Source: a virus. Taken from it: a stretch of 64,000 nt of DNA. Both the position numbers and the translations under genes were made by a program. Of this stretch, positions 1-24,818 are shown in pieces (the first letter of the stretch is position 1; each line of letters opens with the position of its first letter). The notes below the pieces were generated by a model that saw nothing but the letters and a program-made list of their open reading frames with translations, was not told where the DNA came from and made no database searches. The stretch is from positions 1 to 64,000 of the IMG/VR virus record IMGVR_UViG_3300035181_001045. One strand, given 5' to 3'.

Positions 1-184
1 ATGACTTCCAGTTGGGGTGGGACGACACCTTGTAATAAAGGTGTCGACCAACCGCAACAGCGTCCACGATCGTGTAGTTCTTGGCGTCGGGTGTCTTGGG
101 CACGGAGGAAGGGCTTTCGTAGGGCGAGACGTAGTCCCTGTGGCTGCTACAGCTCGGGTCGTTGGCGCTGTGTCGGCATGTCAT
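1..184 (-). CDS. Hypothetical protein, partial (C-terminus outside window)
   Basis: The minus-strand reading frame starts at ATG 184-182, overlapping the stop of the CinA-NadD gene (ATGA), and runs open off the left edge. It begins MTCRHSANDPSC and contains NYTIVDAVAVGRHLYYKVSS, which looks like real coding sequence. The ATGA coupling suggests translation with the upstream NAD gene. I recognise no family. Confidence 0.6.
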   Translation of the reverse strand, partial: MTCRHSANDPSCSSHRDYVSPYESPSSVPKTPDAKNYTIVDAVAVGRHLYYKVSSHPNWKS

Positions 185-1317
185 TTCTTTTCCTTGTTGC
201 GCAGCTCGGTCGAGCTGATATCCCACCGGCCCGGGACATCCTTGAACAGGAAGTCGAGGCTGTCATCGACATCCTTGTTGCCGTAGATGATGTCGCCCGA
301 CGTCTTGTACTCGCCCTTGACGAGCCGACCGAGGACGTAGAAGCGCGTGCTCAGGGCCGAGAACTCCTCCAGCAAGGGCGCGATCTCGATGCCCCACTTG
401 GGATCGAGCATCGTCGCCAGGGTGTCAGCCCCGAGCACGAATGCGGCTCCCGGAAAGGCCCGCGCCTTGTCGAGGAAGAGCGGATCGTTCTCCGAGAGGA
501 GGTAGTTCCGCCCCTGCATCCCAGCCACCCGCTGCATCAGCTCCGGGACCGAGAGAGTTGCCTTGTGGACCGGGTTGATGGTGGTCATGTGGACCAACGT
601 CTGGTGGTACTTGTAGGCCATGAACAGCGCCTCCTGACCACCCTTGTCGTGCCCGTCATGGAAGGGGTTGAAGCTTCCCGGGTAGATGAGAGTCTTCAGA
701 GGGTCAATGTCAGCAGCCGTCCCACGCTTGCCGTTCGCCTTGAAGTAGGGGTGAGCGAAGAGACGGGCCCTCGCCTTGTCCATGGCCTCGATGGGCTCGA
801 ACTTCACGCCGAGGATGTAGGGATCGACCTGGAGGCCCATCGCTCGCGAGAGGATGTTGAGCCCCATCGAGTCGGCGATCAGCCCGTCCACCCCACGCTG
901 CTCCCAGCCCACACCCTTGGGGATGACGGCGGAAGCGACGTAGCAGCCCCCATCACCGAAGGCCGCGACGAAGATCCGGTGGTCTCCCCGGTGCTCGCGG
1001 GTCGAAGCGACCGAAGCCGCGAGCCCGATCCCGATGGCCTTCGATCCAGACTTCACGGCCCGGAGGTACGCGGTCATGGCGAGGTCGAGCGCGATGTTCT
1101 CGTCGCAGTACTTCTCGGGGGTGAATCCCAGATGGCGGGCGGTGTCCTCGGGTTCGTACGGGAAGCCCGCGCCGATGAGGAAGTTGGAACAGCCCGGGAG
1201 AGCCCAGAGGCGGGACTGGATCCCCGCTCCGGCACCCGTGGCAAGGACGAAGACCCGCGGGGCGTCAGCACCGAGGTCTCGGATGATTTCGATGTTGCGT
1301 GTGGTGTTGGTGCTCAT
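181..1317 (-). CDS. CinA-like / NMN adenylyltransferase (NadD/NadM-like) fusion
   Basis: 378 aa. The N-terminal half resembles the CinA C-terminal (PncC, nicotinamide-nucleotide amidase) domain, with ATGAGAGIQ and ALPGCSNFLIG near residues 24-50. The C-terminal half is a nucleotidyltransferase: IYPGSFNPFHDGH carries the HxGH signature at about residue 210, and ISSTELRNK near the end is the ISSTxxR motif. Together these would deamidate NMN and adenylylate the product, an NAD+ salvage route. The start MSTNTTRN (1317) lies 9 nt after the TGTAGA of a class I promoter. The amidase call is weaker than the nucleotidyltransferase call. Confidence 0.8.
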   Translation of the reverse strand: MSTNTTRNIEIIRDLGADAPRVFVLATGAGAGIQSRLWALPGCSNFLIGAGFPYEPEDTARHLGFTPEKYCDENIALDLAMTAYLRAVKSGSKAIGIGLAASVASTREHRGDHRIFVAAFGDGGCYVASAVIPKGVGWEQRGVDGLIADSMGLNILSRAMGLQVDPYILGVKFEPIEAMDKARARLFAHPYFKANGKRGTAADIDPLKTLIYPGSFNPFHDGHDKGGQEALFMAYKYHQTLVHMTTINPVHKATLSVPELMQRVAGMQGRNYLLSENDPLFLDKARAFPGAAFVLGADTLATMLDPKWGIEIAPLLEEFSALSTRFYVLGRLVKGEYKTSGDIIYGNKDVDDSLDFLFKDVPGRWDISSTELRNKEKK

Positions 1318-1326
1318 GTTGCCGGC

Positions 1327-1354
1327 TCTACAGGGTGAGGAAGCCACGGATCAA
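1327..1354 (-). promoter_or_regulatory. Class I promoter for CinA-NadD
   Basis: On the minus strand TTGATC, 16 nt, TGTAGA; the start codon follows after 9 nt. Confidence 0.7.
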
Positions 1355-1551
1355 CCGTGTTCCTCTTCAGGGTTGTGGGTTCCCACAGAAAGCGGACCCG
1401 TGGCGTCGATGTAGATGACCTGGCGGCCATCTTCCAGCATCTCCAGGTAAGCTCGACGACGATCCGCCCAGTCACGGTAGGGTCCCATGAGGGTCGGCCG
1501 CCCACCGCGGATTTCCACGATGTAGTTCTGATCCAGAATTCCTTTAGCCAT
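1351..1551 (-). CDS. Small hypothetical protein
   Basis: 66 aa beginning MAKGILDQNYIVEIRG. Unlike most genes here it has a leader of about 30 nt after its class I -10; the leader contains a GCGGA/TCCGC hairpin. Its 3' end overlaps the promoter of the CinA-NadD gene. Family not recognised. Confidence 0.65.
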   Translation of the reverse strand: MAKGILDQNYIVEIRGGRPTLMGPYRDWADRRRAYLEMLEDGRQVIYIDATGPLSVGTHNPEEEHG

Positions 1552-1581
1552 GCGTCGCCTCTTGCGGATCTGTCCGCGGGT

Positions 1582-1609
1582 TCTACATGCCGAGGGAGAG
1601 CCGGATCAA
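1582..1609 (-). promoter_or_regulatory. Class I promoter
   Basis: Minus-strand TTGATC-N16-TGTAGA. It forms a divergent pair with the plus-strand promoter at 1642-1669. Confidence 0.65.
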
Positions 1610-1641
1610 CCCCCCAGCCACAAGCGGCGAGACATGACAGG

Positions 1642-1669
1642 TTGATCCGGCTCTCCACCTTTTTGTAGT
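1642..1669 (+). promoter_or_regulatory. Class I promoter
   Basis: TTGATC (1642-1647), 16 nt, TGTAGT (1664-1669), then ATG after 6 nt. Confidence 0.7.
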
Positions 1670-1675
1670 CAGAGC

Positions 1676-1966
1676 ATGAAGTCCAAGTTCGAACTCGGCC
1701 GTCTGCTTTGCACCCCTGGGTGCCAGGAGAAGTTCACCAAGGAAGAGATGCTCGCGTGCCTCAAGCGCCACGAGACCGGGGACTGGGGCGACGTGTATGC
1801 CCATGACCGTCGCGAGAACGATCGGGCCCTCAAAGAGGGTTCCCGCCTCCTGAGCGTCTACAAGCTCGGAGAGGAGCGATCCCTCTGGATCATCACGGAG
1901 GCGGACCGTTCGGTCACGACCTCTCCCATCGGAGTACTAGCCCTCATTTGCGACGGAAGACCTTGA
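1676..1966 (+). CDS. Conserved small protein of the GDWGD/ITEADRS type
   Basis: 96 aa. CTPGCQEKF, RHETGDWGDV, GSRLLSVYKL and WIITEADRSVTT match a widespread small plasmid and phage protein family without known function; members usually end with TT-hydrophobic-P-E-(D/E)-Y. Here the end after ADRSVTT diverges (SPIGVLALICDGRP), so a late frameshift or a replaced tail is possible. It starts 6 nt after a class I -10, so the message may be leaderless. It converges with and slightly overlaps the minus-strand gene at 1937. Confidence 0.8.
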   Translation: MKSKFELGRLLCTPGCQEKFTKEEMLACLKRHETGDWGDVYAHDRRENDRALKEGSRLLSVYKLGEERSLWIITEADRSVTTSPIGVLALICDGRP

Positions 1967-2161
1967 TCTCCCCTCGGTCTCTTCGACCTTCGCCAGCATT
2001 TTCAGGGCTTCTTGAGCGGTTCGGACCTTCTCCCGAGTGCTGTAGGAGAAGGCCCGATAGCGCACGTCAACCCAGCCTTCGGTATCCCCCGCCCACCAAT
2101 ATTTCCGGATCCAACTGATGTCGGATCCCGGTGCCACGTCACGACGGAGGATGTAGCCCAT
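1937..2161 (-). CDS. Small hypothetical protein (beta-rich plus C-terminal helix)
   Basis: 74 aa, MGYILRRDVAPGSDIS with a body rich in W and Y and a helical end with REKVRTAQEALKMLAKVEE. The shape resembles the small proteins at 33576, 33892 and 34893. Its ATG lies 3 nt beyond the TAG stop of the ADP-ribosylglycohydrolase, in the same frame, so read-through would fuse the two. Confidence 0.65.
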   Translation of the reverse strand: MGYILRRDVAPGSDISWIRKYWWAGDTEGWVDVRYRAFSYSTREKVRTAQEALKMLAKVEETEGRSRSSVANEG

Positions 2162-2164
2162 GAG

Positions 2165-2783
2165 CTACTTCGCGGCTTCTTCGTCGCGAACAGCCCAGCC
2201 GATGGCCGGACGCACGATGAGGCTCGTCTCGTTCTGCGCGACGCCGCCGAGCCTTCCTCGGCCTCCAGGGAGCGATGGGTGAGCACCGCATCCCTACGAG
2301 CCACAGCCATTCCCTCGTCGAGGGGCCGATGGCAGTAGTACATCCCGATCGGGGTGGCACGCATTGCCGTCCCATTTCCCTCGGAGCCGATGACCCCACA
2401 CGTCTCAGGGTCAAAATCCCGGGCGAAGGTCTCCAATGCCTTCTTCGTCGTCCCGCCAATGCCCCGACAGTTCGTGTATTGGAACCAATCGAGGTAGGAA
2501 TGGGCCACCGTGCGAGGGTCGAACCCCCGTCGCTTCACCAAAGCCCCTGCGAGCGCGAGCGACATCTGAGTGTCGTCCGTCCACTCCCCGGCTTCCTGGT
2601 CGTGGTAGCCCCCACGAGAGTCGCGGTACTCCCCTTCCAGGTGAGAAGGTCCTGGTCGACGATGTGGGACTTGCTGGAGGGCTTCTCGAACGGCGCTCCG
2701 AGAGCATCCCCAATGGCGAGCCCGACGAGCGGGGCGGGGTAGTGCTGCATGATGTCCGCCAATGCTTCTTTCGAAAGAGTCAT
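2165..2783 (-). CDS. ADP-ribosylglycohydrolase (DraG-like), frame broken twice
   Basis: The pieces assemble to about 206 aa. GLAIGDALGAPFE lies near residue 20, GEWTDDTQMSLA carries the TDDTQ metal-binding motif, then GNGTAMRATPIGM and NETSLIVRPAIGWAVRDE. These are signatures of the DraG fold, which removes ADP-ribose from proteins or nucleic acids using two Mg ions. The frame changes near 2640 and near 2262; restoring one base at each gives a length divisible by three, which points to homopolymer deletions rather than decay. The ATG overlaps the stop of the 2783-3187 gene (TAATG). It may reverse host ADP-ribosylation or act with the neighbouring NAD gene. Confidence 0.85.
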
Positions 2784-3187
2784 TACAATCCGATCTCCTG
2801 GGGGGTCTTGCGCACGCGGGCCTTGGTCATGCTGAGCGCAGCGTGACTCACGGTATCCTTGCCCAAGACCTTGAACTCGTGATCCACGATGAGCAACCCC
2901 ACCCGGTTGTCCCAGCCGATAGAAAAACGGTAGAGCCAGGCGTCATCGACCTTGAGGATGGTCTTCAGATGCGTCCAGGCCTGTGCGCTCGTGGCCAGAT
3001 CGAAAGCCCACAGGACAGCGCCCAGAGCGGTACATCGAACGGGGACATTCTTGTCCGGACCCGTCCAATCGAACATCGCTCCGCGGTCGAGCTGGATCCC
3101 TTGAGCTTCGGCCTTGTCGCACGACTCCCCGATGATCTGGAGGGCCGGCTTCCGAGGCGGAACATAGAGAACGTTCAGTTCAGTCAC
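2783..3187 (-). CDS. Hypothetical protein
   Basis: 134 aa from a GTG start that overlaps the end of the 3180-3857 gene. It contains AFDLATSAQAWTHLK and WDNRVGLLIVDHEF. It sits directly upstream of the ADP-ribosylglycohydrolase with overlapping stop and start, so the two are probably co-translated. No family recognised. Confidence 0.7.
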   Translation of the reverse strand: MTELNVLYVPPRKPALQIIGESCDKAEAQGIQLDRGAMFDWTGPDKNVPVRCTALGAVLWAFDLATSAQAWTHLKTILKVDDAWLYRFSIGWDNRVGLLIVDHEFKVLGKDTVSHAALSMTKARVRKTPQEIGL

Positions 3188-3857
3188 CTTTTGGGTTTAC
3201 ACCGAACTCGGGGGAATCGAGCTGATCCCAAAATGTGGGACGTCGATTGTACTCCGCTTCAGCTCGACGACGCAGTTTTTCGTCACGTCGCCGGAGCTGA
3301 GCGTCTGTGAGAGACGGGGTATTCGCAGCTTGAAGCTCGACACCGTCAACCCAAGGAGGACGGCGGTTAGCGTATTCTTCGAGAACGGTGCCGACCGCTT
3401 GAACCAAAGTAGCAACGTGGACATCGCGGTCAGGTCGTCCCTGCGCCCCAACGAAGCCCACCTCAAAGTCCTCTCCCTCCTCGGACTGGAAAATGCTGAA
3501 GGCATCATGGTACAACAAGATGCCTCCTGCGATAGAGGTACGTGGCCCTCCCATGATGTGGAGAGAGACACCCGTCAAGTTAGGATCTCTCGACTGACAG
3601 GTGAGGCCTTCTTGCCGCAGATGACGTAGAGCCCCTGCGATTGAAAGCCCCGTTCGAACGGGGCTTTCAATCGCAGGGGTCGTCACGACAGGCACCCAAC
3701 CGTGGGGCTTGCGAATCACTCGCGTACACACACCATTCATCTCTGAGAAGGTGTGGCTGCTTTGAATCGCCTCATGCTCATGCACAGAAGCGAGGGACGG
3801 GAGATCGACCCACCCAGCTCGGGACGCACGATACTGGACGCAGTAGAAGCGAGGCAT
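3180..3857 (-). CDS. Hypothetical protein with tail motif and internal 48-nt palindrome
   Basis: 225 aa beginning MPRFYCVQYRASRAGW. The region encoding TPAIESPVRTGLSIAG is a perfect 48-nt palindrome (3632-3679). Near the C-terminus RRPTFWDQLDSPEF matches the W-x-x-L acidic tail motif shared by many proteins of this window. It starts 8-9 nt after a class II -10. Function unknown. Confidence 0.75.
   Translation of the reverse strand: MPRFYCVQYRASRAGWVDLPSLASVHEHEAIQSSHTFSEMNGVCTRVIRKPHGWVPVVTTPAIESPVRTGLSIAGALRHLRQEGLTCQSRDPNLTGVSLHIMGGPRTSIAGGILLYHDAFSIFQSEEGEDFEVGFVGAQGRPDRDVHVATLVQAVGTVLEEYANRRPPWVDGVELQAANTPSLTDAQLRRRDEKLRRRAEAEYNRRPTFWDQLDSPEFGVNPKGD
3632..3679. repeat. Perfect 48-nt palindrome inside a coding region
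   Basis: The 24-nt arms meet with no loop, centred on GTTCGAAC at 3652-3659. The host reading frame continues through it. No T-run follows, so it is not a standard terminator. Confidence 0.9.
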
Positions 3858-3866
3858 CCCTCCCCT

Positions 3867-4040
3867 CTACACCGGATTCGGGGGCAGCTTCGTCTTGGGG
3901 GTGCCCACCATCTTGACGCCTCTCGCCGGGCTCGTCTTCCCGGCACACGAGGAGCACAAGGGAACCGTGGTGCCCCCTTTGGTGGTGTATGCGGGGGCTC
4001 CGCAGTTGAGGCACACGTCGGTCTTGATCTTGGTAGTCAT
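3867..4040 (-). CDS. Small zinc-knuckle protein
   Basis: 57 aa, MTTKIKTDVCLNCGAPA, with C-x2-C at CLNC and a second C-x2-C at CSSC, spaced as in a zinc ribbon. Its terminal Val-stop (GTG TAG) lies inside the class II -10 of the downstream gene. Role unknown. Confidence 0.8.
   Translation of the reverse strand: MTTKIKTDVCLNCGAPAYTTKGGTTVPLCSSCAGKTSPARGVKMVGTPKTKLPPNPV
3868..3873 (-). promoter_or_regulatory. Class II promoter (GGTGTA)
   Basis: CCGGTGTAG overlaps the stop codon of the zinc protein and precedes the 3857 start codon. Confidence 0.5.
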
Positions 4041-4064
4041 GTCAAGAGGTCTACCACAAATTCT

Positions 4065-4901
4065 TCAGGGAATGCTCAGATCCACCCCCGCGGCCAATGC
4101 GAGCCGGCGGAGAGTAGTCAGAACTTCCACACGGTACTTCGGGTTGAAGCTCTTCCGCATGGCATCCGCGTGGACTTGCCGAAGGTAGACCGGGCTCCCC
4201 GCCACCGCATTGGAAGCCTGGAAATCCGCGATCCCAGCCGTCATGAGGAGGTCGTAGTCGGGACTGACCCCGTAGACTTGCGTGATCTCGGGGAACTCTT
4301 TCAGCAGTTCCGTGTACATGCTCTCCAAGGTCAATCCCCAGGTGAGCTGGTACACCTTCCCCGTGGGAGGCACCACCAACAGGAAGTTGTGCTCCCTGTT
4401 GTAGGGAGGGCATTCCCCCTCCCAGCGATACCAGTCCGATTTGCCGCCCCACTCGTGCCAAGCTTCCTGGGTGCCCCATCGAGCGATCCACCCATAGCGA
4501 CACTTCCGGAGGTCGCCGATCACCTGGTATTTGGCGTCGAAGCCCTCGACGTTCTTGAGCCACTCCTCGGCTGCGATGTGGGCGTCACGTCCCCCGAAGA
4601 TATCGACCTCATTCAAGTCCTTGAGGTTCGTAGGGAGGCCGTTGTCGCAAGGCCCTTTTCGGAGAGCCTTGATCACCACCCCCAGCATGAATTGGAACGC
4701 CAGGCAATACTCCTTTGCCTCCTCGAAGGTTGCGAAGGGGAGCTGGGTATTGAGCGGGATCATGCCGAACCCGACGTCATAGCCTCCGGGTTCGGCATGG
4801 AGGTGTCCCTCGTAGTCGTTCCCCGAGGCTGTTCGCCCCTTGCACCGCCAGATGTGAATGTGACAGGACGCTTCTTCTTCGGGGGTCAAAGGGGCCGTCA
4901 C
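4065..4901 (-). CDS. Hypothetical protein
   Basis: 278 aa from a GTG start overlapping the TGA of the 4898-5089 gene (GTGA). It begins MTAPLTPEEEASCHIHIW and contains RWGTQEAWHEWGGKSDWYRW. The start at 4901 is chosen because of the stop/start overlap; longer in-frame starts exist up to 4943. No family recognised. Confidence 0.7.
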   Translation of the reverse strand: MTAPLTPEEEASCHIHIWRCKGRTASGNDYEGHLHAEPGGYDVGFGMIPLNTQLPFATFEEAKEYCLAFQFMLGVVIKALRKGPCDNGLPTNLKDLNEVDIFGGRDAHIAAEEWLKNVEGFDAKYQVIGDLRKCRYGWIARWGTQEAWHEWGGKSDWYRWEGECPPYNREHNFLLVVPPTGKVYQLTWGLTLESMYTELLKEFPEITQVYGVSPDYDLLMTAGIADFQASNAVAGSPVYLRQVHADAMRKSFNPKYRVEVLTTLRRLALAAGVDLSIP

Positions 4902-5089
4902 AGTTCTACTTCTTCTTTCCATTCTCGCGTGCAGAACATGCACAATCTAAGGGTCACTTGCACCTTAGCCCCCAAGGGTTGCCTCGACTCGATCCGACGC
5001 GAATCGATGTACCATCTGTGATACCCCCAACAGCATCGGATTGGAGTCCGAGGGACTTTTGGGGCTTCACGGTAGGGGGATTTAGGCAC
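4898..5089 (-). CDS. Small zinc-ribbon-like protein
   Basis: 63 aa from GTG (MPKSPYREAPKV). CCWGYHRWYID followed by RLCMFCTREW gives a C/H-rich pattern close to that of the 19282-19575 protein. The start lies 2 nt after the TAG of the upstream gene and the stop overlaps the downstream GTG, a tight operon layout. Confidence 0.7.
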   Translation of the reverse strand: MPKSPYREAPKVPRTPIRCCWGYHRWYIDSRRIESRQPLGAKVQVTLRLCMFCTREWKEEVEL

Positions 5090-5091
5090 TG

Positions 5092-5937
5092 CTACTGCGC
5101 TTCGATGGCCCAGCTCGTACCGGGGACGACGCGCTCGAACAGGTTGGTGTTCTGCCCCTCGTAGCCGAGACGAGAGAAGTTCCGGATGGGGAAGTACCAG
5201 TCCCCATTGCGCATGGAGCGCTGGGTCTTCATCCCTGCCACGCGGGTCGCGAGATAGGGTGTGACGTTCGAGCCCATACGCCAGTCCGTGTAGTGGACGG
5301 GGCTCGCTTGAGACATCGCTCGAAGCTCCGTTCCGACGATGAGAGCGTGGTCCGTGGTCACGTCGGCATTGAGGTTCGGCGCACGGCCATCGTGCCCATC
5401 CAGGCCCGGGAGGAAGAGGTTCTCGGTGTCCGTCGGCTTGTACCACCAGAGCAGGGGCTCCGCGTCCACAAGCCCGCTCCAGCAACACAGAGCGAACTGC
5501 GAGTTGGGGTAGAGCCGGGCGTAGGCGTCGAAGATGTCCCGGTTGATCTTCGGACGCTTGGCCATGGGCACGAACCCGAGCGCGGACGGGATGGCGCTCG
5601 CATCCTCCGCGAGCACGACCGTGTAGGACCCGCTGTCGAAGACCTGGATCCCCTTGGTGAGGCCGTCGACTCCCAACGAACGCGCGAAGCCTCGCGTCTT
5701 GGGTGTGATGGCTTCCACCATGTCCTTGAGGAAGTTCTTGGCCGAACGCGTGTCGATGATGTTCTCGGGGCCCATCGGGGTCTTCGAGGGGATCGGCAAG
5801 AGCATCGCATTCGGACCGACGCTCACGGCCGTGTTGCCGTAGCCGAGCGTGTGCAGCACACCGCCCTTGGGGTCAGGCAGCTCGGCAGCGTAGAGGATGG
5901 TCTTGGAGAGGGTGGCGGGAGCGAGGGTCATGCACAT
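5092..5937 (-). CDS. Conserved-looking phage protein of unknown function
   Basis: 281 aa. It contains GGVLHTLGYGNTAVSVGPNA, VVLAEDASAIPSALGFVPM, FALCCWSGLVDAEPLLWWY and DHALIVGTELRAMSQASPVH. No catalytic motif is evident. Start ATG 5937 or the second Met at 5931. Confidence 0.75.
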   Translation of the reverse strand: MCMTLAPATLSKTILYAAELPDPKGGVLHTLGYGNTAVSVGPNAMLLPIPSKTPMGPENIIDTRSAKNFLKDMVEAITPKTRGFARSLGVDGLTKGIQVFDSGSYTVVLAEDASAIPSALGFVPMAKRPKINRDIFDAYARLYPNSQFALCCWSGLVDAEPLLWWYKPTDTENLFLPGLDGHDGRAPNLNADVTTDHALIVGTELRAMSQASPVHYTDWRMGSNVTPYLATRVAGMKTQRSMRNGDWYFPIRNFSRLGYEGQNTNLFERVVPGTSWAIEAQ

Positions 5938-5959
5938 GAGATTCGATGCTTTCTGGGGT

Positions 5960-6745
5960 TCAGATGAGCCGAAGAGACGGAATCGTGCGCTCGTCCTGAG
6001 AGACGATGTTCTCTTCTTGAGCCTTCTTGAGGAAGTTCAACGTGGGAGTGAAAACCTTCTCCAGATCCCGACGATTGTTGTTCAGAGAGGTGATCTTGGA
6101 CAGAAGGTCGTTCTGGGTCGCGATGGTCACCGCGTCGACCTTGTACCCCTTCTGCGCTTCTTGAGCGAGGAGCCTGAAGCTGGCAGAGATCGCGCGATAC
6201 TCCCCAAGGTCTCGCCGAATCGCCTTGAAGTAGAAGTCGTTGCTGACGGCCGTCGCGATGAACGCCACGATCATGCTGACGATCACGATCCAGAGGCGGT
6301 AGTTCTCGGGGCCCCATCCGTGATGGGCGAGGATGCCGATGACGGGAACGAAGCTCACGAGCAGCCCGTAGAAGCCCCACATGCGAGTCTGCTTCTCCGA
6401 CTCGTGTTTCGTGAGCTGGTCATCGTACATCATCATCGACGCGGTCGCTTTGACTCCGCAGTCCGTCTCCATCTCGTAGCAGAACTGTTGGAAGGCCTCG
6501 CGGTCCTTCAGCTCCGGCGGGACCAACGCCAGAAGCTTGGCTTCCTCTGCGTCTCGCGCGGCCTTGTCCTGCTTCTTGGCGGCGGACTGTGAGGCGACCA
6601 GCTCGGCGTACCTATCGTCCGCCTCTTGCTTGACGCTGAGGGCAAGGTTCACGTCGAGGTCCTGGAGCAGCTTGAGGAAGCTGCTCCGCGCCTCTTGAAC
6701 CTGATTCATGCAACGTTCTTCGAGACTCTTGGGGGGTGTGGGCAT
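5960..6745 (-). CDS. Membrane protein with two TM helices and coiled coil
   Basis: 261 aa. An acidic helical N-terminal region rich in A/E/K (coiled coil likely) is followed by TM segments around GFYGLLVSFVPVIGILAHH and YRLWIVIVSMIVAFIATAVS, then a long helical C-terminal part. Class II GGTGTAAAGG lies 8 nt before the ATG. Function unknown; it could be an inner-membrane anchor. Confidence 0.8.
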   Translation of the reverse strand: MPTPPKSLEERCMNQVQEARSSFLKLLQDLDVNLALSVKQEADDRYAELVASQSAAKKQDKAARDAEEAKLLALVPPELKDREAFQQFCYEMETDCGVKATASMMMYDDQLTKHESEKQTRMWGFYGLLVSFVPVIGILAHHGWGPENYRLWIVIVSMIVAFIATAVSNDFYFKAIRRDLGEYRAISASFRLLAQEAQKGYKVDAVTIATQNDLLSKITSLNNNRRDLEKVFTPTLNFLKKAQEENIVSQDERTIPSLRLI

Positions 6746-6755
6746 GGGATACCTT

Positions 6756-6761
6756 TACACC
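6756..6761 (-). promoter_or_regulatory. Class II promoter (GGTGTA)
   Basis: TGGTGTAAAGG precedes the 6745 ATG. Confidence 0.5.
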
Positions 6762-6763
6762 AC

Positions 6764-6988
6764 TCAGCCACGATACTCGATCGCGTCCAGCTTGGGGATG
6801 CCTTCCCCGCGAAGGATGAGCCCCACCTCATCCTTCGGTCTCGGGTGTCGAGGAAAGTCGATCCCCACGAGCTGCCAGGATCGATCCCCTTGATGCAGGA
6901 AGTCCCCCACATTGATGGGCGTCTCCGGCAAGCCCTTGATGAGAACGATCATCCGGTCCTTCGTGTGGAAGATCGCGAAGATGTTCAA
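6764..6988 (-). CDS. Small beta-barrel-like protein
   Basis: 74 aa from a TTG start that overlaps the TGA of the upstream gene. MIVLIKGLPETPINVGDFL and KDEVGLILRGEGIPK have the rhythm of an EF-Tu domain-2-like beta barrel; that comparison is by eye only. Confidence 0.65.
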   Translation of the reverse strand: MNIFAIFHTKDRMIVLIKGLPETPINVGDFLHQGDRSWQLVGIDFPRHPRPKDEVGLILRGEGIPKLDAIEYRG

Positions 6989-7671
6989 AATTCATCCTCC
7001 CCCAAGAGCGCGCGGCCGAACGTCGAGAGATGGGGAACGACGGGCTTCGCCGGGGTCGCAACCTGCACAGGAGCTTCGATCGGACAGCACCCATGATCGA
7101 CCCTGTATTCCCCAGTCCTCGAAAAGACGTAGCAAAGCCGAGGGTGGCTGAGTTGTCGAAGCGCCCGCCGCAGTTCATGTTCTGATTGAGGCGCAAGGTG
7201 CATGTCCTCGAACGCGAAGACAAACAGGGGATTTTGATCCCGGACGCGCATCCCCGACGCGAGAAATTCCGGGGCTGTGTTCACGTATTCGTACCAGACC
7301 GTGTGGCTGTCTGTCGCAGCCCGCATCGACTGTTCGAGTTCGACGGCATAAGACTCGGGGTCGAGGTCTCTACGGACGCCACGGGTCGTATGCGACATGA
7401 CGTTCACGTACTGCCGCCAGGCGTCTCGCACGGACTCGGAATCGTCATTGAAACGGCGATTCCGAGTCCGACTCTCAACGACAGCATTCAACGCCGTCAT
7501 CAAGTAGAAGGGCAGGGAAGGAGTGTTCCGAGCAACCTCCCCCATCTCGAAATTATCCCAGACCCGCACGGGGATGATGTTCTCGTACGGCCGCTCGCTC
7601 AAAAGAGCGCCGATGTCACAGCCCTCGCGGAGGGTCAGGATGAGCGGTTGACCCCGCCCCCTCAGATCCAC
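6985..7671 (-). CDS. Hypothetical protein with C-terminal tail motif
   Basis: 228 aa from a GTG start. It ends STFGRALLGEDEF, a variant of the shared acidic tail. A perfect inverted repeat (7431-7470) lies in the region encoding NRRFNDDSESVRD. A 1-nt change upstream would link it to MTSIVPGREPQRQTS and an ATG at 7715, so the true start is uncertain. Confidence 0.7.
   Translation of the reverse strand: MDLRGRGQPLILTLREGCDIGALLSERPYENIIPVRVWDNFEMGEVARNTPSLPFYLMTALNAVVESRTRNRRFNDDSESVRDAWRQYVNVMSHTTRGVRRDLDPESYAVELEQSMRAATDSHTVWYEYVNTAPEFLASGMRVRDQNPLFVFAFEDMHLAPQSEHELRRALRQLSHPRLCYVFSRTGEYRVDHGCCPIEAPVQVATPAKPVVPHLSTFGRALLGEDEF
7431..7470. repeat. Intragenic inverted repeat, 14-nt arms, 12-nt loop
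   Basis: CGGACTCGGAATCG pairs perfectly with CGATTCCGAGTCCG. It lies within the 6985-7671 gene; no T-run. Confidence 0.85.
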
Positions 7672-7762
7672 GAAGTCTGTCTCTGCGGCTCTCTGCCAGG
7701 GACGATCGAGGTCATGAAGGTTCGCGTGCAGTTGTCGGGAGCTGATTTACACGAGGAATAGC

Positions 7763-8152
7763 TTACACCGGATCGTTGATCCCCAAAGCGGCACGCTCTG
7801 CCGAATCGAGCTTGGAGAGCGCTCTCTGACGCACCTGGTCCACGGACATGATGCGAGGCAGCACAACGACCGGCTCGCCGATCTTGATGATGTGCCCGAC
7901 CATCCCGTCATCCACCAAAACGCGAACCGGGCGAACAAATCCTTCACCCCCACCCACACCCTTCCCGCGAGCAAACTCGCGAGCGGTGACCTCGTCTTCG
8001 GTGACGCAGATGTGGTAGGTCCCCTGGGTTTCAGGGGTTTTGCATCCACGCACCTCGAAGGCGTCGATGATGCGGGTTGGCTGCGGCGGGGGCAGGATGG
8101 TCATGGGGGGCATAACCTCTGTGTTTCGGTCTGCGCTGGCTTCATCGAGCAT
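7763..8152 (-). CDS. Hypothetical protein
   Basis: 129 aa starting MLDEASADRNTEV, chosen because GTGTAGGGAGGAAGGG precedes this ATG. It contains GTYHICVTEDEVTAREFA and ends DSAERAALGINDPV. The sequence upstream in frame lacks coding character. Confidence 0.7.
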   Translation of the reverse strand: MLDEASADRNTEVMPPMTILPPPQPTRIIDAFEVRGCKTPETQGTYHICVTEDEVTAREFARGKGVGGGEGFVRPVRVLVDDGMVGHIIKIGEPVVVLPRIMSVDQVRQRALSKLDSAERAALGINDPV

Positions 8153-8170
8153 AAAATTACCCTTCCTCCC

Positions 8171-8176
8171 TACACC
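8171..8176 (-). promoter_or_regulatory. Class II promoter (GGTGTA)
   Basis: GGTGTAGGGAGGAAGG precedes the 8152 ATG and also offers a Shine-Dalgarno site. Confidence 0.5.
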
Positions 8177-8230
8177 CGAAGAAGGAAATTCAGGACGTCG
8201 ATTTTCAGACACAGCCAAAACCATGGGCAT

Positions 8231-8236
8231 GGTGTA
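8231..8236 (+). promoter_or_regulatory. Class II promoter (GGTGTA)
   Basis: GGTGTACAAGAGACGC precedes the ATG at 8247 and is the main reason for choosing that start. Confidence 0.45.
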
Positions 8237-8246
8237 CAAGAGACGC

Positions 8247-9008
8247 ATGCAAAGCAACGATGGCTACCGAGATCGATTTCGGGCGTACTACCACCTCAAA
8301 GACCGACCCCAAGTCGACGAAACCGTCTACCTCCGCAAGGTGTACGCCTGGTTGACTGTAGGCCTGATGCTCACAGCCGGCATGGCCTGGTACTCCTTGA
8401 CGGGCTTCGGAGAGAGGCTCCTGGTTCAGGGAGACAAGCAGGCGATGGTCCCGAACCTCGTCGCCGACATGGAGGCGCATCCCTTCATGGCCATCGGGAT
8501 GTTCTTTGCCCTCGGCCTCGGAGCGATGTTCTTCAGCCGTGTGAAGGGACTGAACGCGGTGCTCTTCTTCAGCTTCTCGGCGTTCTCGGGGGCCTTCATC
8601 GGGCCGTCGCTCTTCATTGCCCAGCTCTCCGCGAGCCACGGGCACACGCTCTCCCCGAACCCCATCCTCCACGCTGGGGTGCTCACGGTGAGTGCCTTCG
8701 TCGGGCTCACCGCCTACGTCTTGACGACGCGGAAGGACTTCTCCGCCTGGGGCGGCTTCCTGATGTCGGGGCTCTTCGTCCTCATCGCAGCCGGCGTTCT
8801 CGGGTTCTTCGTCCAGGCTGAGGTCTTCCACCTGGCAGTTGCGAGCGCGGGTGTCCTCGTCTTCCTCGGGTTCATCCTCTACGACACGTCGAAGATCCTG
8901 CTGAAGTCCGACTACAGCGATCCGATCGGGGACGCGCTGAACCTCTACCTGGACGTCCTCAACCTCTTCCTGAACTTGCTGCGGATCTTCGCCTCGTCCA
9001 AGGACTGA
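8247..9008 (+). CDS. BAX-inhibitor-1 (BI-1/YccA) family membrane protein
   Basis: 253 aa with about seven hydrophobic segments. The C-terminal FILYDTSKILL, DYSDPIGDALNLYLDVLN and LFLNLLRIF are the BI-1 signature. Known family members (YccA, YbhL, YetJ) are inner-membrane proteins that modulate FtsH proteolysis or conduct Ca2+/H+. In a phage it may protect the envelope or tune host proteolysis; that role is inference. The start MQSNDGYRD is chosen from the class II promoter, with an upstream ATG (8223) possible. Confidence 0.9.
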   Translation: MQSNDGYRDRFRAYYHLKDRPQVDETVYLRKVYAWLTVGLMLTAGMAWYSLTGFGERLLVQGDKQAMVPNLVADMEAHPFMAIGMFFALGLGAMFFSRVKGLNAVLFFSFSAFSGAFIGPSLFIAQLSASHGHTLSPNPILHAGVLTVSAFVGLTAYVLTTRKDFSAWGGFLMSGLFVLIAAGVLGFFVQAEVFHLAVASAGVLVFLGFILYDTSKILLKSDYSDPIGDALNLYLDVLNLFLNLLRIFASSKD

Positions 9009-9011
9009 GCC

Positions 9012-9506
9012 ATGGAAGACGACGTCGACCTGGACTCCGACTGGGCCATCTTGAAGGGAGAGCCGGATCGACTCTACCTCGTGGCTACTGGCGATTGGGA
9101 CAAGCCCAGTGCGATTTGGCTCGTCGAGTGTACAGGCAGCAACCGGGAGTCTTGGAACATCAAGAACCCCAAGCTGGTATGGGTTGAGTCCAGCGTTGTC
9201 TTGAATACCCCCAAGAACGCCGAGTACATTCGGGACTACAGTATTGCTAAATGTTGTGCCAAGTCCACAACCACGTTCTCTCTGACCGAAGCGCACACCA
9301 TGATCCGACGGAGCCGGATCGGGCATCTGAATCGGATCAAAGAAGAGATCAAGACAGTCGAGGTCGAGCAGAAAAGAGCAGCGCTCTTTCTGGAATGGGC
9401 ACGAACCCGTGCCCGAGAGATCGTCGATGAGCTTGAAGGCGCCCCGAAAGTAGATAAGGCAGAAGCTCCCCGCGATCACCTCAACTACATCTTTGAAAAT
9501 GTTTAG
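9012..9506 (+). CDS. Hypothetical protein
   Basis: 164 aa, acidic N-terminus MEDDVDLDSDWAILKGEP and a helical C-terminal half. It follows the BI-1 gene by 3 nt (TGA GCC ATG), so the two are probably co-expressed. It overlaps the convergent 9503 gene by 4 nt. No family recognised. Confidence 0.75.
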   Translation: MEDDVDLDSDWAILKGEPDRLYLVATGDWDKPSAIWLVECTGSNRESWNIKNPKLVWVESSVVLNTPKNAEYIRDYSIAKCCAKSTTTFSLTEAHTMIRRSRIGHLNRIKEEIKTVEVEQKRAALFLEWARTRAREIVDELEGAPKVDKAEAPRDHLNYIFENV

Positions 9507-17871: not shown

Positions 17872-18309
17872 ATGAAAAGCTCCAACATCATCGAATCCTC
17901 GTACTTCCACATTCACAATGGAGGTTTGACCCTCAACATCGTCGAGCAAACCCATACTTGGGAGTCGCCCGTCCTGGCGAAGAAGGACGGGTCAACTACC
18001 TCCCACATTTCCAAGAAATGGGAGTTCGAGGCTGTCCTGTCCAGCTTCGGCCACTCTGTGCGGGCAAGCTTCCCGCTCGGGGGCCCCGTCGTCGAATGGA
18101 CCATCGGCGCTCTCCAGCGGATCCTCGCTCGAATGGTGAAGCCCTCTCCCCTCGCCACGGATGGTGTGGAGTTCTCGTTCTCCGGGCTTAGGTACGCAGA
18201 TGTTTCGCGTATCAACGGTGAGAACGCCCCCCCGCACCCCGAGAAGCTGCGGCAGTTCGACGGCAAGGCGCACACGAACGCTCCCATCTCCGAAGACATC
18301 AAGCGATAA
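17872..18309 (+). CDS. Hypothetical protein
   Basis: 145 aa, MKSSNIIESSYFHIHNGGLT; beta-rich centre (EFEAVLSSFGHSVRASFPL). No family recognised. Confidence 0.75.
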   Translation: MKSSNIIESSYFHIHNGGLTLNIVEQTHTWESPVLAKKDGSTTSHISKKWEFEAVLSSFGHSVRASFPLGGPVVEWTIGALQRILARMVKPSPLATDGVEFSFSGLRYADVSRINGENAPPHPEKLRQFDGKAHTNAPISEDIKR

Positions 18310-18332
18310 ACCTCTCGGGTGCAACCTTGGTT

Positions 18333-19256
18333 ATGGATGATCTACGCCCGAAGGGAACTGTCGAGGTCAAGTGCTCGCACCCCGGCTGCAACACCTACTG
18401 GTGGATTGACCCTCTCGATCCACGGCTTCCTGGCGGACCGTTCCTGTGTGGCTCAACCCACGAAGATGACCGCCAGAAGCAGATCGACAGCCTTCTCCCC
18501 ATCTTTGGCCTCCGTTGGGGGACCCGATGCTACCGGGGAGCCCGCTCCGATGGTCTGCCCAGCGTGGGTGGCTATGGCGGAGAACCCGCCGGAACCGTGC
18601 TATTCCACAACAAGTGGTGGAATAAAATGGGTAGCCTGTATTACGAGGACATCGCGAGCCTCGATAATCCGCTGAAGATCCCTGAGAGCATCAACTGGGA
18701 TGTTCTCAGCCCTCATCTGACGGGGGGAATGCACGAGGACCCCGGGCCTACACCTCGCATGGGAGGGAAGAACTACGTCGAACAAGACGACGGGTCCCTC
18801 AAGGCGGTCAATCTCGTCGTACACACATGTACGCATTGCGGGCGAACTGTGGGTCTTCATGAGACCCACCCGCGGGCGTTCTCTGGGCCCGCGTCCTGCG
18901 CAGATGAGACGGGCTGGCAAGAGAACTGGAATCCCTGTCCGACCAAGGATGGGATTGCGCTGGCTCTCGATGACCTGCTGACGGCGTACCATGGCAAAGA
19001 GGCGATTTGGACCATGTGGACGGGCGGCGACATGAGCGCCCGGAATGCCGTCAACTACTACGATCAGGGTGCCATCCTGATCCGGAAGCTCGTCGAGCCC
19101 TTCCCTGTCTTCGCGCTTCTCCACTACTCCAGCCCATACGAGATTCTCACCCTCGTCAAGAGCCTGAAGTTCACGCGGCTCGTCGAGATCCCCATGCTCG
19201 CATCCACGCCCCCCGAGTTCTCTAGCCGGGCCCTGACGGCGCTTTCCTTCGTCTGA
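18333..19256 (+). CDS. Zinc-site-containing hypothetical protein
   Basis: 307 aa. CSHPGCNTYWWIDP near the start and HTCTHCGRTVGLHETH in the middle look like separate metal sites. The C-terminal part is helical with FPVFALLHYSSPYEILTLV. The start is the first ATG of the frame. Function unknown. Confidence 0.7.
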   Translation: MDDLRPKGTVEVKCSHPGCNTYWWIDPLDPRLPGGPFLCGSTHEDDRQKQIDSLLPIFGLRWGTRCYRGARSDGLPSVGGYGGEPAGTVLFHNKWWNKMGSLYYEDIASLDNPLKIPESINWDVLSPHLTGGMHEDPGPTPRMGGKNYVEQDDGSLKAVNLVVHTCTHCGRTVGLHETHPRAFSGPASCADETGWQENWNPCPTKDGIALALDDLLTAYHGKEAIWTMWTGGDMSARNAVNYYDQGAILIRKLVEPFPVFALLHYSSPYEILTLVKSLKFTRLVEIPMLASTPPEFSSRALTALSFV

Positions 19257-19281
19257 GCTTTTGGGGGTTGCTGGTGTAAGG

Positions 19282-19575
19282 TTGGGGGTCACGCCTGAAA
19301 CGACCCCCACAACCTGCACACACGACTGGAAGATCCAGCCGGACGCCTCCAACCGCAAGGTGACCCGATACCTCTGTGCGACATGCCAGCGCTGGGGGTA
19401 TCGGATGTGGACTGTGGGCAAGACAGGGATGATTCAGCTCTACGCTTCGCCCAACCCCGTCCACGCCTGGTACGACCTCCCGGAGACTCGACGGCCCGCC
19501 AAGAAAAGGGTCAACCCTGAAGAGGTCGTCGAGTCCTTCGTCCCCGAGTCCAACCGCTGGCGAGATCCGAGTTGA
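19282..19575 (+). CDS. Small zinc-ribbon-like protein
   Basis: About 97 aa. CTHDWKIQPDASNRK then YLCATCQRWGYRMW, the same C-x-H...C-x2-C layout as 4898-5089. TTG start chosen because GGTGTAAGG lies just upstream; the start is uncertain. Confidence 0.6.
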   Translation: MGVTPETTPTTCTHDWKIQPDASNRKVTRYLCATCQRWGYRMWTVGKTGMIQLYASPNPVHAWYDLPETRRPAKKRVNPEEVVESFVPESNRWRDPS

Positions 19576-19599
19576 TCCGGCTGGTCCTCGGCTTGTATG
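19572..19599 (+). promoter_or_regulatory. Class I promoter
   Basis: TTGATC-N16-TGTATG; ATG 6 nt downstream. Confidence 0.7.
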
Positions 19600-19605
19600 T
19601 CAAGG

Positions 19606-19932
19606 ATGAAGTCCCTCACCTACACGACCACCGCCCAAGAACCTGCCAGCAACATCGGCAACGTCTGCGAAGCCCACGCCCCCAGAGGTGGCGGATTCGT
19701 CGGACAGGACCCGACGAGCTTCGTCGGCAAGTACGTCAAGATGAACTTCGTCGGCAAGACCGACGGCGGCGTCTCCAGGAACGAGCACATGTGGGTGCTC
19801 GTCCTGTGCCTGGAAGGCGGCCTCTTGACGGGCACGCTCAACAACGACCCCATCTACGACCACGGCGGCCTGAAGGACGGGTCGATCGTCAAGGGGATCA
19901 CGGTCGCGCAGATCGAGGAAGTCTATGACTGA
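19606..19932 (+). CDS. DUF2314-family protein
   Basis: 108 aa. KYVKMNFVGKTDGG, NEHMWVLVLCLEGG and LTGTLNNDPIYDH match DUF2314 (YegJ-like), a small fold that recurs in bacterial proteins, including putative immunity contexts. Biochemical role unknown. Confidence 0.75.
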   Translation: MKSLTYTTTAQEPASNIGNVCEAHAPRGGGFVGQDPTSFVGKYVKMNFVGKTDGGVSRNEHMWVLVLCLEGGLLTGTLNNDPIYDHGGLKDGSIVKGITVAQIEEVYD

Positions 19933-20211
19933 GCATCAATGGGAGCAGGTCGACTACCGAGAAATCTGGGAGAAGCAGGCCTACACCCTGGTCACAAACG
20001 CCCGCACGATCCCCAAGGGGGGCGCAGTCGATTCATAGGCGCTCATGTCCACGAGTGGTGCAATCAGTGCGGCTGCCTTCGGCACCAAATCCTGATGGGC
20101 CCCGAGATGAAGCCCGTGACCACCTCGTTCCGTGTGCCGGGGAATCCGGGGACAAAGAACACGCATTCGTGTGTTGATCACAAGCTCCGCTCGGCTGTAG
20201 TAGCTGCATGA
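19925..20211 (+). CDS. Small Cys/His protein, frameshifted
   Basis: MTEHQWEQVDYREIWEKQ, overlapping the previous stop, continues after one added G in a G6 run (about 20022) into HVHEWCNQCGCLRHQIL and NTHSCVDHKLRSAVV, restoring 95 aa. Likely metal binding. Its 3' end carries the next class I promoter. Confidence 0.6.
20174..20201 (+). promoter_or_regulatory. Class I promoter
   Basis: TTGATC-N16-TGTAGT; ATG 6 nt downstream. Confidence 0.7.
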
Positions 20212-20483
20212 AACCGATTCGAGCCCAGAAGAAACGCAAGGAGAAGAAAGTCCAGGTCCAGGTCTACTTCGACATGCACCACTTCCAAACGGACGAGAAC
20301 GGCACTCTGACCGTGTCGGTCGTGAAGGATGCGAAGAACCTCTGGCGCGTCACCGTGTGGGGCAACGACGATGCGGGCATGGAACGAGCGGGTACGCTCG
20401 ACGAAAGCCTGACCGTCTTCGACGCCGTCTTTGATGGCGTCGAACGGAAAACGCTGATCGCTCAGGGATTTGTGCAAGCGTGA
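20208..20483 (+). CDS. Small hypothetical protein
   Basis: 91 aa with a basic N-terminus (KKRKEKKVQVQVYFD) and beta-rich remainder (LWRVTVWGNDD). Likely leaderless. Confidence 0.7.
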   Translation: MKPIRAQKKRKEKKVQVQVYFDMHHFQTDENGTLTVSVVKDAKNLWRVTVWGNDDAGMERAGTLDESLTVFDAVFDGVERKTLIAQGFVQA

Positions 20484-20650
20484 AGCCTTCGATCATCGAG
20501 GTCGTCCAGGACGACCCGCCCCGCAGAACGCTCGCCATCCCACCTCGGGGGGCGTTCTGCGACCATCGGAAGATGAAGGAGTGTCACCCCGGATGCGGCC
20601 ACTTCTCTTGCCCTTGCGGCATCTCTTGGGATGAGGGCGCCGAGAAGTAA
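20480..20650 (+). CDS. Small Cys/His-rich protein
   Basis: 56 aa from a GTG that overlaps the preceding TGA. AFCDHRKMKECHPGCGHFSC followed by PCG forms a dense C/H cluster. Confidence 0.7.
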   Translation: MKPSIIEVVQDDPPRRTLAIPPRGAFCDHRKMKECHPGCGHFSCPCGISWDEGAEK

Positions 20651-20719
20651 CAACCGCGTCGAGAAACTTTTGCTTGCGTGAAGTTGTAGTCCCTGGTACG
20701 CTCGGAGCAAGGTGAATCA

Positions 20720-21307
20720 GTGGAAGTACAGGAAGGCTACATTTCAGGCCAACTTCTCGTTTTGACGAGAGGTCCTGACAAGCTCTACACACACGCTGGG
20801 TACGTTCAAAAGCACCCCACATGGGACGTGCTTTGCGCCTGCGGTAAAGTGTACAACGTCATCGGATTTCGGCTGAAAGGCAAGAAGGCGCTGATGTCGT
20901 GTCGTGAGTGCGCCAATCGGGCGAAGCAACTCAACGGCCAGCTCTCCCACCACTATCTGAGGCGCTTGCAAATATCCGCTAGCAAGCGCGGAATCTACTT
21001 CGATCTGGGGGTCACCAAAGAGTACCTCCTGGGACTGCTGTCAGCGCAGAACAAGCGCTGTGCGATGTCTGGGCTTGATATCGGCTTCGCCGCAAGCGTT
21101 CACGGTGAGAAGCACGGAGAATCTACTGCGTCCCTGGATCGTGTGGACAATGCCAAGGGATACGAGGTAGGCAACGTTCAGTGGCTACACAAAGATGTCA
21201 ACAGGCTCAAGGGCACATTCGATCAGGCTAGAGTAATTGAACTGGCGCGAGCCATCACCCAAGCGTCGGTTGATCGGTATGACCCTACGTTTGTAGGAGG
21301 ATCATGA
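20720..21307 (+). CDS. HNH-type endonuclease (homing-like)
   Basis: 195 aa. Two C-x2-C pairs (CACGKVY, SCRECANR), then QNKRCAMSGLDI, STASLDRVDNAKGYEVGNV and QWLHKDVNRLKGTFD, the His-Me (HNH) core of phage free-standing endonucleases. GTG start. Its 3' end contains the class I promoter of the next gene. Confidence 0.85.
   Translation: MEVQEGYISGQLLVLTRGPDKLYTHAGYVQKHPTWDVLCACGKVYNVIGFRLKGKKALMSCRECANRAKQLNGQLSHHYLRRLQISASKRGIYFDLGVTKEYLLGLLSAQNKRCAMSGLDIGFAASVHGEKHGESTASLDRVDNAKGYEVGNVQWLHKDVNRLKGTFDQARVIELARAITQASVDRYDPTFVGGS
21270..21297 (+). promoter_or_regulatory. Class I promoter
   Basis: TTGATC-N16-TGTAGG inside the HNH gene end; ATG 6 nt downstream. Confidence 0.7.
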
Positions 21308-21558
21308 AATCAGAGCGAAATCTCCGTCTCATTCTCGACGTTCTCACTGTCGAGCCCATGCTCACATACGATATCCAAAAGGCTCTCGACGAGAGTACGG
21401 AGGACTGGGAGAAAATGTACGAGAACGAGACGGAGTATGCTCTGGAACAGGCGGTAGAGCGCGGCTTTGCCGTGAAAGGTGGTCGGGAGGAAGACCCGAC
21501 CTACTCCCGAATTTATTCGGTTGATCCCATCCGACCGACCTCTGTAGGAGAGGCATGA
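21304..21558 (+). CDS. Small hypothetical protein, possibly winged-helix
   Basis: 84 aa. LILDVLTVEPMLTYDIQKAL and EYALEQAVERGFAVKGG resemble a winged helix with a wing region. DNA binding is only a suggestion. Confidence 0.6.
   Translation: MKSERNLRLILDVLTVEPMLTYDIQKALDESTEDWEKMYENETEYALEQAVERGFAVKGGREEDPTYSRIYSVDPIRPTSVGEA
21521..21548 (+). promoter_or_regulatory. Class I promoter
   Basis: TTGATC-N16-TGTAGG; ATG 6 nt downstream. Confidence 0.7.
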
Positions 21559-22061
21559 AGTTCTCCGAGATCCCCCAGTTCCCCAAAGCACACTACCAGG
21601 TCCACGTCTCTTGGCGCTATCTGGAAGACCAGATCAACAAGGACAAGGAGCTACCGCTCAACCTGGAGCCGGACTATCAGCGCGGCCACGTCTGGACGCC
21701 GGAGCAGAAGACGGCCTTCGTCGAATACGCCCTCATGGGTGGCGAATCCTCGATGAACATCACGACCAACTGTCCCGGATGGATGGGCGACTACAGAGGC
21801 CCCTACGAGCTTGTGGACGGCCTCCAGCGCGTGTCTGCGGCCCTCGGCTTCATGCGGAACGAGGTCCCGGCGTTCGGGAAGCTCTACTCGGAGTTCGAGG
21901 GCAAGCTCAACTACACTTCAGGGCCGTCGTTCAACTGGCGCGTGATGAACCTTGCGACGCGTGCCGAAGTCCTCAAGCTGTACCTCCTCATCAACGCGGG
22001 TGGGGTGGTTCATTCGGCGGAAGAGATCGCTCGCGTCAAGAAGCTCCTGGAGACGGCCTAA
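21555..22061 (+). CDS. DUF262 (ParB-superfamily) protein
   Basis: 168 aa. LNLEPDYQRGHVWTPEQKTA, YELVDGLQRVSAAL and YLLINAGGVVHSAEEIARV match the DUF262 domain, whose D-G-x-x-R site binds nucleotides in GmrS-type enzymes. Only the single domain is present, without a DUF1524 nuclease part. It may regulate or counter nucleic-acid targeting systems. Confidence 0.85.
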   Translation: MKFSEIPQFPKAHYQVHVSWRYLEDQINKDKELPLNLEPDYQRGHVWTPEQKTAFVEYALMGGESSMNITTNCPGWMGDYRGPYELVDGLQRVSAALGFMRNEVPAFGKLYSEFEGKLNYTSGPSFNWRVMNLATRAEVLKLYLLINAGGVVHSAEEIARVKKLLETA

Positions 22062-22065
22062 TCGG

Positions 22066-22093
22066 TTGATCCGAGAAGCGCTCGATCTGTAGG
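22066..22093 (+). promoter_or_regulatory. Class I promoter
   Basis: TTGATC-N16-TGTAGG; ATG 9 nt downstream. Confidence 0.7.
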
Positions 22094-22102
22094 GAGGGGA
22101 CC

Positions 22103-22351
22103 ATGTATATCGCAATCGAAGCTGGTCGGCTGGTCATCGAGTTCGGAGAGGATTCGATGGGGACGTTCGCTCTCGACGACGTGGAGGGAGCGGCAACGTT
22201 CCTGGCTGCGCTCAAGAATCGCGACGACGGGGGAGCAACCTACTCTTCGTCGTGCGACGCTCCCGAGCTGTTCGGAGCCCCCAAGGGCTGGAAGTTCGAG
22301 CCCCACATGGATCGCGTGATCGCGCGGGCCATGGTCCTCATCGAGGGCTGA
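22103..22351 (+). CDS. Small hypothetical protein
   Basis: 82 aa, MYIAIEAGRLVIEFGEDS, acidic. First of three closely spaced genes. Confidence 0.7.
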   Translation: MYIAIEAGRLVIEFGEDSMGTFALDDVEGAATFLAALKNRDDGGATYSSSCDAPELFGAPKGWKFEPHMDRVIARAMVLIEG

Positions 22352-22352
22352 C

Positions 22353-22607
22353 ATGCACCCCCTCAACATCGCCCCGCTGTGGACGCTCAACGAGCACCTG
22401 ACGATCGCCCGCCGAAGCGACAAGCCCAAGGCGGGCCAGATCATCCTGGTTGGGGACCTGGACGGGACCGATCGCGTCATCGACGGGTTCAAGATCAAGA
22501 AGGTCCTGCACGAGGGCTCGATCTGCATCGTCATGATGCCGGATGGCTCGGAGCAGTACCGATGGACCACCTATATCACGGCTCGCGGCCGGGTCTGCGG
22601 AGGTTGA
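22353..22607 (+). CDS. Small hypothetical protein
   Basis: 84 aa, beta-rich, with GQIILVGDLDGTDRVIDG. It starts 1 nt after the previous stop. Confidence 0.7.
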   Translation: MHPLNIAPLWTLNEHLTIARRSDKPKAGQIILVGDLDGTDRVIDGFKIKKVLHEGSICIVMMPDGSEQYRWTTYITARGRVCGG

Positions 22608-22609
22608 AG

Positions 22610-22813
22610 ATGTCCGACAGACAACGTAGGAACGCTCACCGTTCCGTCCTCGAAGTGGCGCATCTCGCTCTGGAAGCCTTGGTCGACCCCGTCGATGAGT
22701 CCGATGTTGACCTTCTCGACCCTGATGTGCGGGAACTCTACCAGGGCATCAAGAACGACCTGAATGCCCTGGAGGTCAAAGCTCGCGAGAGCATCGAGAA
22801 ATATCAAGGTTGA
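22610..22813 (+). CDS. Small acidic helical protein
   Basis: 67 aa, MSDRQRRNAHRSVLEVAHLA, with a long amphipathic helix at the C-terminus. It ends Gly-stop at the next TTGATC box. Confidence 0.7.
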   Translation: MSDRQRRNAHRSVLEVAHLALEALVDPVDESDVDLLDPDVRELYQGIKNDLNALEVKARESIEKYQG

Positions 22814-22837
22814 TCGGTACGCCCCTCGCGCTGTAGT
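22810..22837 (+). promoter_or_regulatory. Class I promoter
   Basis: TTGATC-N16-TGTAGT; ATG 6 nt downstream. Confidence 0.7.
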
Positions 22838-22843
22838 CCCATC

Positions 22844-23098: not shown

Positions 23099-23110
23099 AA
23101 GGACTGCATC

Positions 23111-23664: not shown

Positions 23665-23687
23665 ACTTTCTGTGAGAGGTCTTGGGT

Positions 23688-23972: not shown

Positions 23973-23978
23973 AGAGAC

Positions 23979-24812: not shown

Positions 24813-24818
24813 AGAGCC

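Follow-up and report, generated by a model that had tools for sequence, protein, structure and literature searches.

Near the start of the window (the whole 64,000-base stretch analysed here, bases 1-64000 of a 234,659-base IMG/VR record, G000), an intact gene encodes a CinA-like domain joined to a NadD-type adenylyltransferase (Table 1), and we favour, with moderate confidence, the view that this fusion supplies the NMN/NaMN adenylyltransferase in an NAD-salvage module built on NadV and including NrtR, comparable to the NARP2-type counter-defence. In this module, NadV would make NMN from nicotinamide and PRPP, and the fusion would use ATP to turn NMN or NaMN into NAD+ or NaAD, NMN to NAD+ being the simplest reading; NrtR, as an ADP-ribose-sensing regulator, would control the module. 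The CinA-fold domain most likely binds nicotinamide or nicotinate mononucleotide via the phosphate, without the known Ser/Lys deamidation, and probably serves to capture the substrate, to form oligomers or to regulate. The module may hold NAD+ available in infection in the manner of NARP2. Rebuilding NAD+ lets phages weaken defences that deplete NAD, and, if our reading is right, the fusion would represent a third phage NMNAT architecture beside NadM-Nudix and NadR-kinase, with a phage NrtR that could turn the pathway on in response to a build-up of ADP-ribose, which NADases produce. What deserves attention here is the nrtR-nadV-fusion unit rather than the fusion together with the neighbouring draG, an eye-catching glycohydrolase gene that proves to be a deletion remnant and so counsels caution in reading function from motifs.

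Outside the window, proteins of G000 match a terminase large subunit, a portal, a head protease and a major head protein in PHROG scans, which implies that the phage is tailed, and its genome is jumbo-sized; with the terminase of a related record (G003) as query no terminase was found in G000, G001 or G002, and the direct PHROG scans found it. The same phage is represented by a second record, G001 (350,469 bases), which is 100% identical to the window at 52-9317 and 60001-64000 and, at two places compared within the window, colinear with it in reversed orientation; if colinearity, checked within the window only, holds throughout, the remaining ~116 kb of G001 would lie beyond the far end of G000. 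A megablast search of window positions 1-8000 against phage records gave zero matches. The DNA comparisons below use L003, a stretch from a 275-kb relative that is 82-91% identical to the window over the matching segments.

Table 1. Features of the fusion gene and the adjacent draG locus, in window coordinates
Feature	Position	Strand	Evidence
CinA-like/NMNAT fusion, 378 aa, intact	181..1317	-	ORF, starts of relatives, AlphaFold2 model and Foldseek
NadD-type adenylyltransferase C-domain, aa 209-378	184..693	-	PF01467, TIGR00482, profile match to 1kam
CinA/PncC-fold N-domain, aa 21-160	838..1257	-	Foldseek, Pfam in relatives, residue table
draG (ADP-ribosylglycohydrolase) remnant, 5' half only	2238..2783	-	PF03747, intact L003 homologue
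draG frameshift, GGGG against GGGGG in L003 (one G lost)	2631..2634	-	Pairwise DNA alignment
Junction of ~4.4-kb deletion relative to L003 (2854 joined to 7263)	2238..2245		blastn segments, alignments
Last codons of DUF4419 gene, fused to draG remnant	2165..2245	-	DUF4419 gene of L003 ends with the same peptide

On the minus strand, the reading frame of the fusion is open over 181-1347, and an earlier note on this DNA had placed its start at the GTG at 1347; the ATG at 1317 is the likely start, judging from the relatives, which begin there and match over the full length. That note's description of the protein as a CinA-NadD fusion stands: the ORF is intact, and a CinA/PncC-fold N-domain precedes a NadD-type C-domain with HxGH (660-649) and ISSTxxR (present as ISSTELR, 219-199). 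The C-domain scores above the cut-off of Pfam CTP_transf_like (PF01467), matches TIGR00482 weakly and, in a profile search of PDB sequences, resembles B. subtilis NadD (1kam, E 8e-5); a PDB search with the fusion as a single sequence returned nothing meaningful. For the AlphaFold2 model of the fusion (pLDDT 87, pTM 0.86), Foldseek matches the N-domain to CinA structures (6mr3, E 3e-6; 2a9s, E 1.7e-5); a match of the model to the NaMN adenylyltransferase 5llt is weaker (E 6e-3). The C-domain thus has the NadD-type combination of (H/T)xGH and ISSTxxR in a HIGH-superfamily domain and shares a GADxxxxxxxxxW stretch with NadD, but differs from NadD in sitting behind a CinA-fold domain, and the sequence similarity is weak (about 20-25 bits).

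A single-protein search retrieved relatives of the fusion from six viral contigs and an alignment search from 15; these are 38-100% identical, except two divergent ones at 23%, and several of the records span 266-485 kb. The phage record LR745208 holds a further relative (38% identical), and full-length two-domain homologues with 25-29% identity occur in Planctomycetes bacteria (Thermoguttaceae, Planctomycetales). All 13 close phage sequences retain the adenylyltransferase motifs, with minor changes in L028, and the planctomycete homologues largely do so as well. The plant protein At2g01220 is a possible relative, for which we found no literature; a search for publications naming CinA, phage and adenylyltransferase together gave only one paper, on pneumococcal competence. 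In each of G000, G001 and G002, the fusion is the sole CTP_transf_like match.

NAPRTase, NAD synthase and NADAR were not found in G000, and of this phage's two records only the longer, G001, yielded NadV. There it matches NF006629 with 595.9 bits and contains NAMPT_N, and a gene for an NrtR-like protein (NUDIX plus NrtR_WHD) lies directly upstream, the pair occupying about 25.6-27.7 kb of G001 (7603-9716 of L058, which is G001 18000-34000). G002 also has an nrtR-nadV pair. In two relatives, all three genes form a tandem on one strand: L032, which belongs to record G008, has an NrtR-like gene at 3715-4533, nadV at 4545-5957 and the fusion at 5959-7092, and L027 has them at 3598-4305, 4307-5737 and 6019-7119, so that 1 to about 280 bases separate nadV from the fusion. 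The NadV and NrtR_WHD identities are family matches in G008 for L032 and come from sequence reading only for L027. No additional tandem of this kind emerged when L032, L028 and NadV served as queries in wider viral scans.

A different arrangement is seen in G003 and G004, where NadM/Nudix, NadV, NadE and DraG genes stand in a strand-consistent row (5354-11724 of L060, which is G003 84000-100000; 4632-11288 of L061, which is G004 89000-105000), with a NADAR gene immediately before DraG in G004; in both records the fusion gene is ~70 kb away from the row. NadE occurs in five related records; searches for it in G000-G002 and G008 found none. As a separate observation, NadE lies near a P-loop-like gene and a gene for a ~420-aa protein in L063 (5045-8393) and L064 (2456-6613), and the ~420-aa protein is the second CTP_transf_like match in G005 and in G006.

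NARP2 consists of NadV/NAMPT and an NMNAT. The phage represented by G001 likewise encodes NadV and an adenylyltransferase, with a predicted route from nicotinamide through NMN to NAD+, but differs in that the adenylyltransferase is a CinA-like/NadD-type fusion and is paired with a phage NrtR. Both NARP1 and NARP2 have been described as counter-defences (PMC11984713, PMC12774641). Surveys of phage NAD synthesis report NadV together with NadM-Nudix or NadR-kinase enzymes (PMC9503650, PMC7824862); CinA is absent from both, NadE is absent from PMC9503650, and in the passages of the latter that were consulted NrtR appears only for host systems and in the references.

A simpler account, which we regard as rather unlikely as a full explanation, would be housekeeping: an NAD+-dependent DNA ligase would free NMN in replication, and the fusion would recycle it to NAD+ without acting specifically against defences. 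Such a ligase is indeed encoded in the same record (G000 117030-119036, or 13030-15036 of L088, a stretch of G000; phrog_3869, E 9e-150), but the account leaves NadV and NrtR unexplained, and these two imply synthesis from nicotinamide. Recycling of this kind is compatible with the proposed module and does not exclude it.

The role of the N-domain bears on which substrate the fusion would use. Pfam CinA matches four of the seven viral relatives (best E 1.5e-4) and does not match the window's fusion protein taken alone; hhalign aligned the N-domain with five PncC/CinA sequences at E 2.6e-5 and a probability of 75%. One of these five, a sequence taken as that of E. coli PncC, itself gave matches to CinA structures when used as a query, the best at 2.4e-38. 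By fold, therefore, the domain belongs with the PncC/CinA NMN deamidases. In A. tumefaciens CinA, activity is lost in the S31A, K63A, Y58A and R145A variants, and catalysis by a Ser/Lys dyad is favoured (PMC5384747). S31-G46-S48-Y58-K63 of that enzyme align gap-free to T27-G42-S44-Y54-T59 of the window protein, and the phosphate-binding G42, S44 and Y54 (equivalent to G46, S48 and Y58) are invariant; R141, kept in nearly all rows, is probably the counterpart of R145, an assignment made by alignment position only and hence less certain, and H113, R114 and K134 are also kept in nearly all rows. The catalytic residues, in contrast, are not shared. Position 59, equivalent to K63, is Thr or Gln and never Lys in 19 of 19 relatives, and position 27, equivalent to S31, is Thr in the window phage and most phages and Ser in no phage row (four of the five Planctomycetes have Ser, whereas L032 has Ala and L036 has Val). 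The hhalign alignment places the gaps in the S31 region differently, and the window protein has no Ser there in either alignment; the region of the TGxAGPxGG loop, too, has changed, to ASVAS..HRGxHR.

Judged by these residues, the phosphate pocket appears to be kept and the known catalytic dyad is absent, so that the N-domain probably still binds a mononucleotide, and canonical NMN deamidation by it is unlikely. The earlier note had proposed such deamidation and had itself named missing catalytic residues in an alignment as the finding that would refute it; with the Ser31/Lys63 dyad absent, this step is unsupported. Its broader suggestion, that the phage may restore NAD+, survives in part: the phage can probably make NAD+, given NadV and NrtR in G001 and the tandem in L027 and L032, though probably not by the deamidation route.

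It is doubtful, though worth stating, that the N-domain is catalytic in a way new to the PncC family, using a non-Ser/Lys site (Thr27, His113, Arg114, Lys134) to act on NMN or on a related nucleotide derived from ADP-ribose; were this true, the fusion would be bifunctional, under a phage-borne NrtR, and would form an NAD-salvage route undescribed in phages. In the corresponding pathway, which we likewise hold to be improbable, the CinA-like domain would convert NMN to NaMN via the changed site (Thr27 or a conserved His or Lys), the NadD domain would convert NaMN to NaAD, and a host or phage NadE would complete NAD+. The Thr or Ser that most rows have opposite S31, the conservation of Y54, H113, R114, K134 and R141, the NadD-like C-domain and the presence of NadE in the five related records all fit this pathway, but the general base Lys63 is missing from all 19 relatives, the K63A and S31A variants of A. 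tumefaciens CinA are inactive (PMC5384747), L032 has Ala at position 27 despite its nrtR-nadV-fusion tandem, and G001, G002 and G008 have no NadE.

The same data also weigh on the module that we favour, in which the fusion serves NadV-based salvage. NadD enzymes often favour NaMN over NMN, so that, with a NadD-like NMNAT, the product of NadV would go unused without a deamidase; the five NadE-bearing relatives count in the same direction, NadE being the NaAD-using enzyme, and the conserved H113, R114, K134 and R141 make N-domain catalysis by another route possible. In addition, nadV and the fusion are ~320 kb apart in the window's own phage, and all records may be incomplete.

The glycohydrolase gene, by which the phage was earlier supposed to erase host ADP-ribosylation, offers no basis for that activity here. 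TDDTQM is there (2580-2563), and with it the N-terminal metal ligands (TDDT) and the N-terminal half that the remnant shares with DraG, but the gene is frameshifted and its C-terminal half is deleted: PF03747 matches with 115.8 bits over profile positions 27-166 only, of 287, with the coding split over two frames, and the C-terminal metal ligands (GGDTDT) do not occur in one open frame with it. L003, from a relative ~90% identical to the window, has an intact 326-aa draG at 2307-3287 with both TDDTQM and GGDTDT. The 4.4 kb absent from the window comprise draG from its middle onwards (the 3' half), an endonuclease VII-like and a T5orf172/MUG113-type gene, and the larger part of a DUF4419 gene (L003 6252-7343). 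L003 has complete copies of both draG and the DUF4419 gene, of which the window retains only parts, and it follows that the segment was lost from the window and not gained by L003. The window locus is a chimera of a draG head and a DUF4419 tail. G001 carries the same lesions, and no second PF03747 match was found in G000 or G001; draG is a pseudogene remnant without part in this phage. A programmed frameshift was ruled out, the C-terminal half being absent downstream. Elsewhere, a second broken glycohydrolase lies at 5541-6489 of L078 (G005 400000-412000), with the N-terminal half and the GGDTDT half in separate reading frames.

That the draG frameshift, as distinct from the deletion, is an assembly error is a possibility that we consider on the unlikely side. 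It is a one-base homopolymer loss, and a second such loss is seen in the neighbouring ORF; G001, however, has the identical sequence, though the two assemblies may not be independent. The outcome for draG is the same in either case, since the 4.4-kb deletion alone removes GGDTDT and leaves the gene broken even if the frameshift were an artefact.

The 0.8-kb spacing between the fusion and draG is itself a product of this deletion, and where other records keep an intact glycohydrolase, its distance from the fusion ranges from several kb to tens of kb, so that the cluster seen in the earlier note is not supported as a conserved one. A working two-gene unit that would deamidate and adenylylate to make NAD+ and also remove ADP-ribosylation from the host is accordingly very improbable, for although both motif sets lie within 2.6 kb and relatives have intact glycohydrolases (close to NadV and NadE in G003 and G004), draG is frameshifted and halved in both records of the phage, the deamidase dyad is missing and the spacing is deletion-made; its glycohydrolase half is refuted unless the genome has an intact second copy in a part that has not been sequenced.

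Other genes of the window include one for a Bax inhibitor-1 family membrane protein (8040-9008; PF01027, E 5.5e-45), an RlaP-type RNA-repair nucleotidyltransferase (54338-55588) and an ArdC-like anti-restriction protein (61487-62380). ARAGORN further predicts a tRNA with anticodon TCA (tRNA-SeC type) at 48247-48319, which possibly reads TGA.
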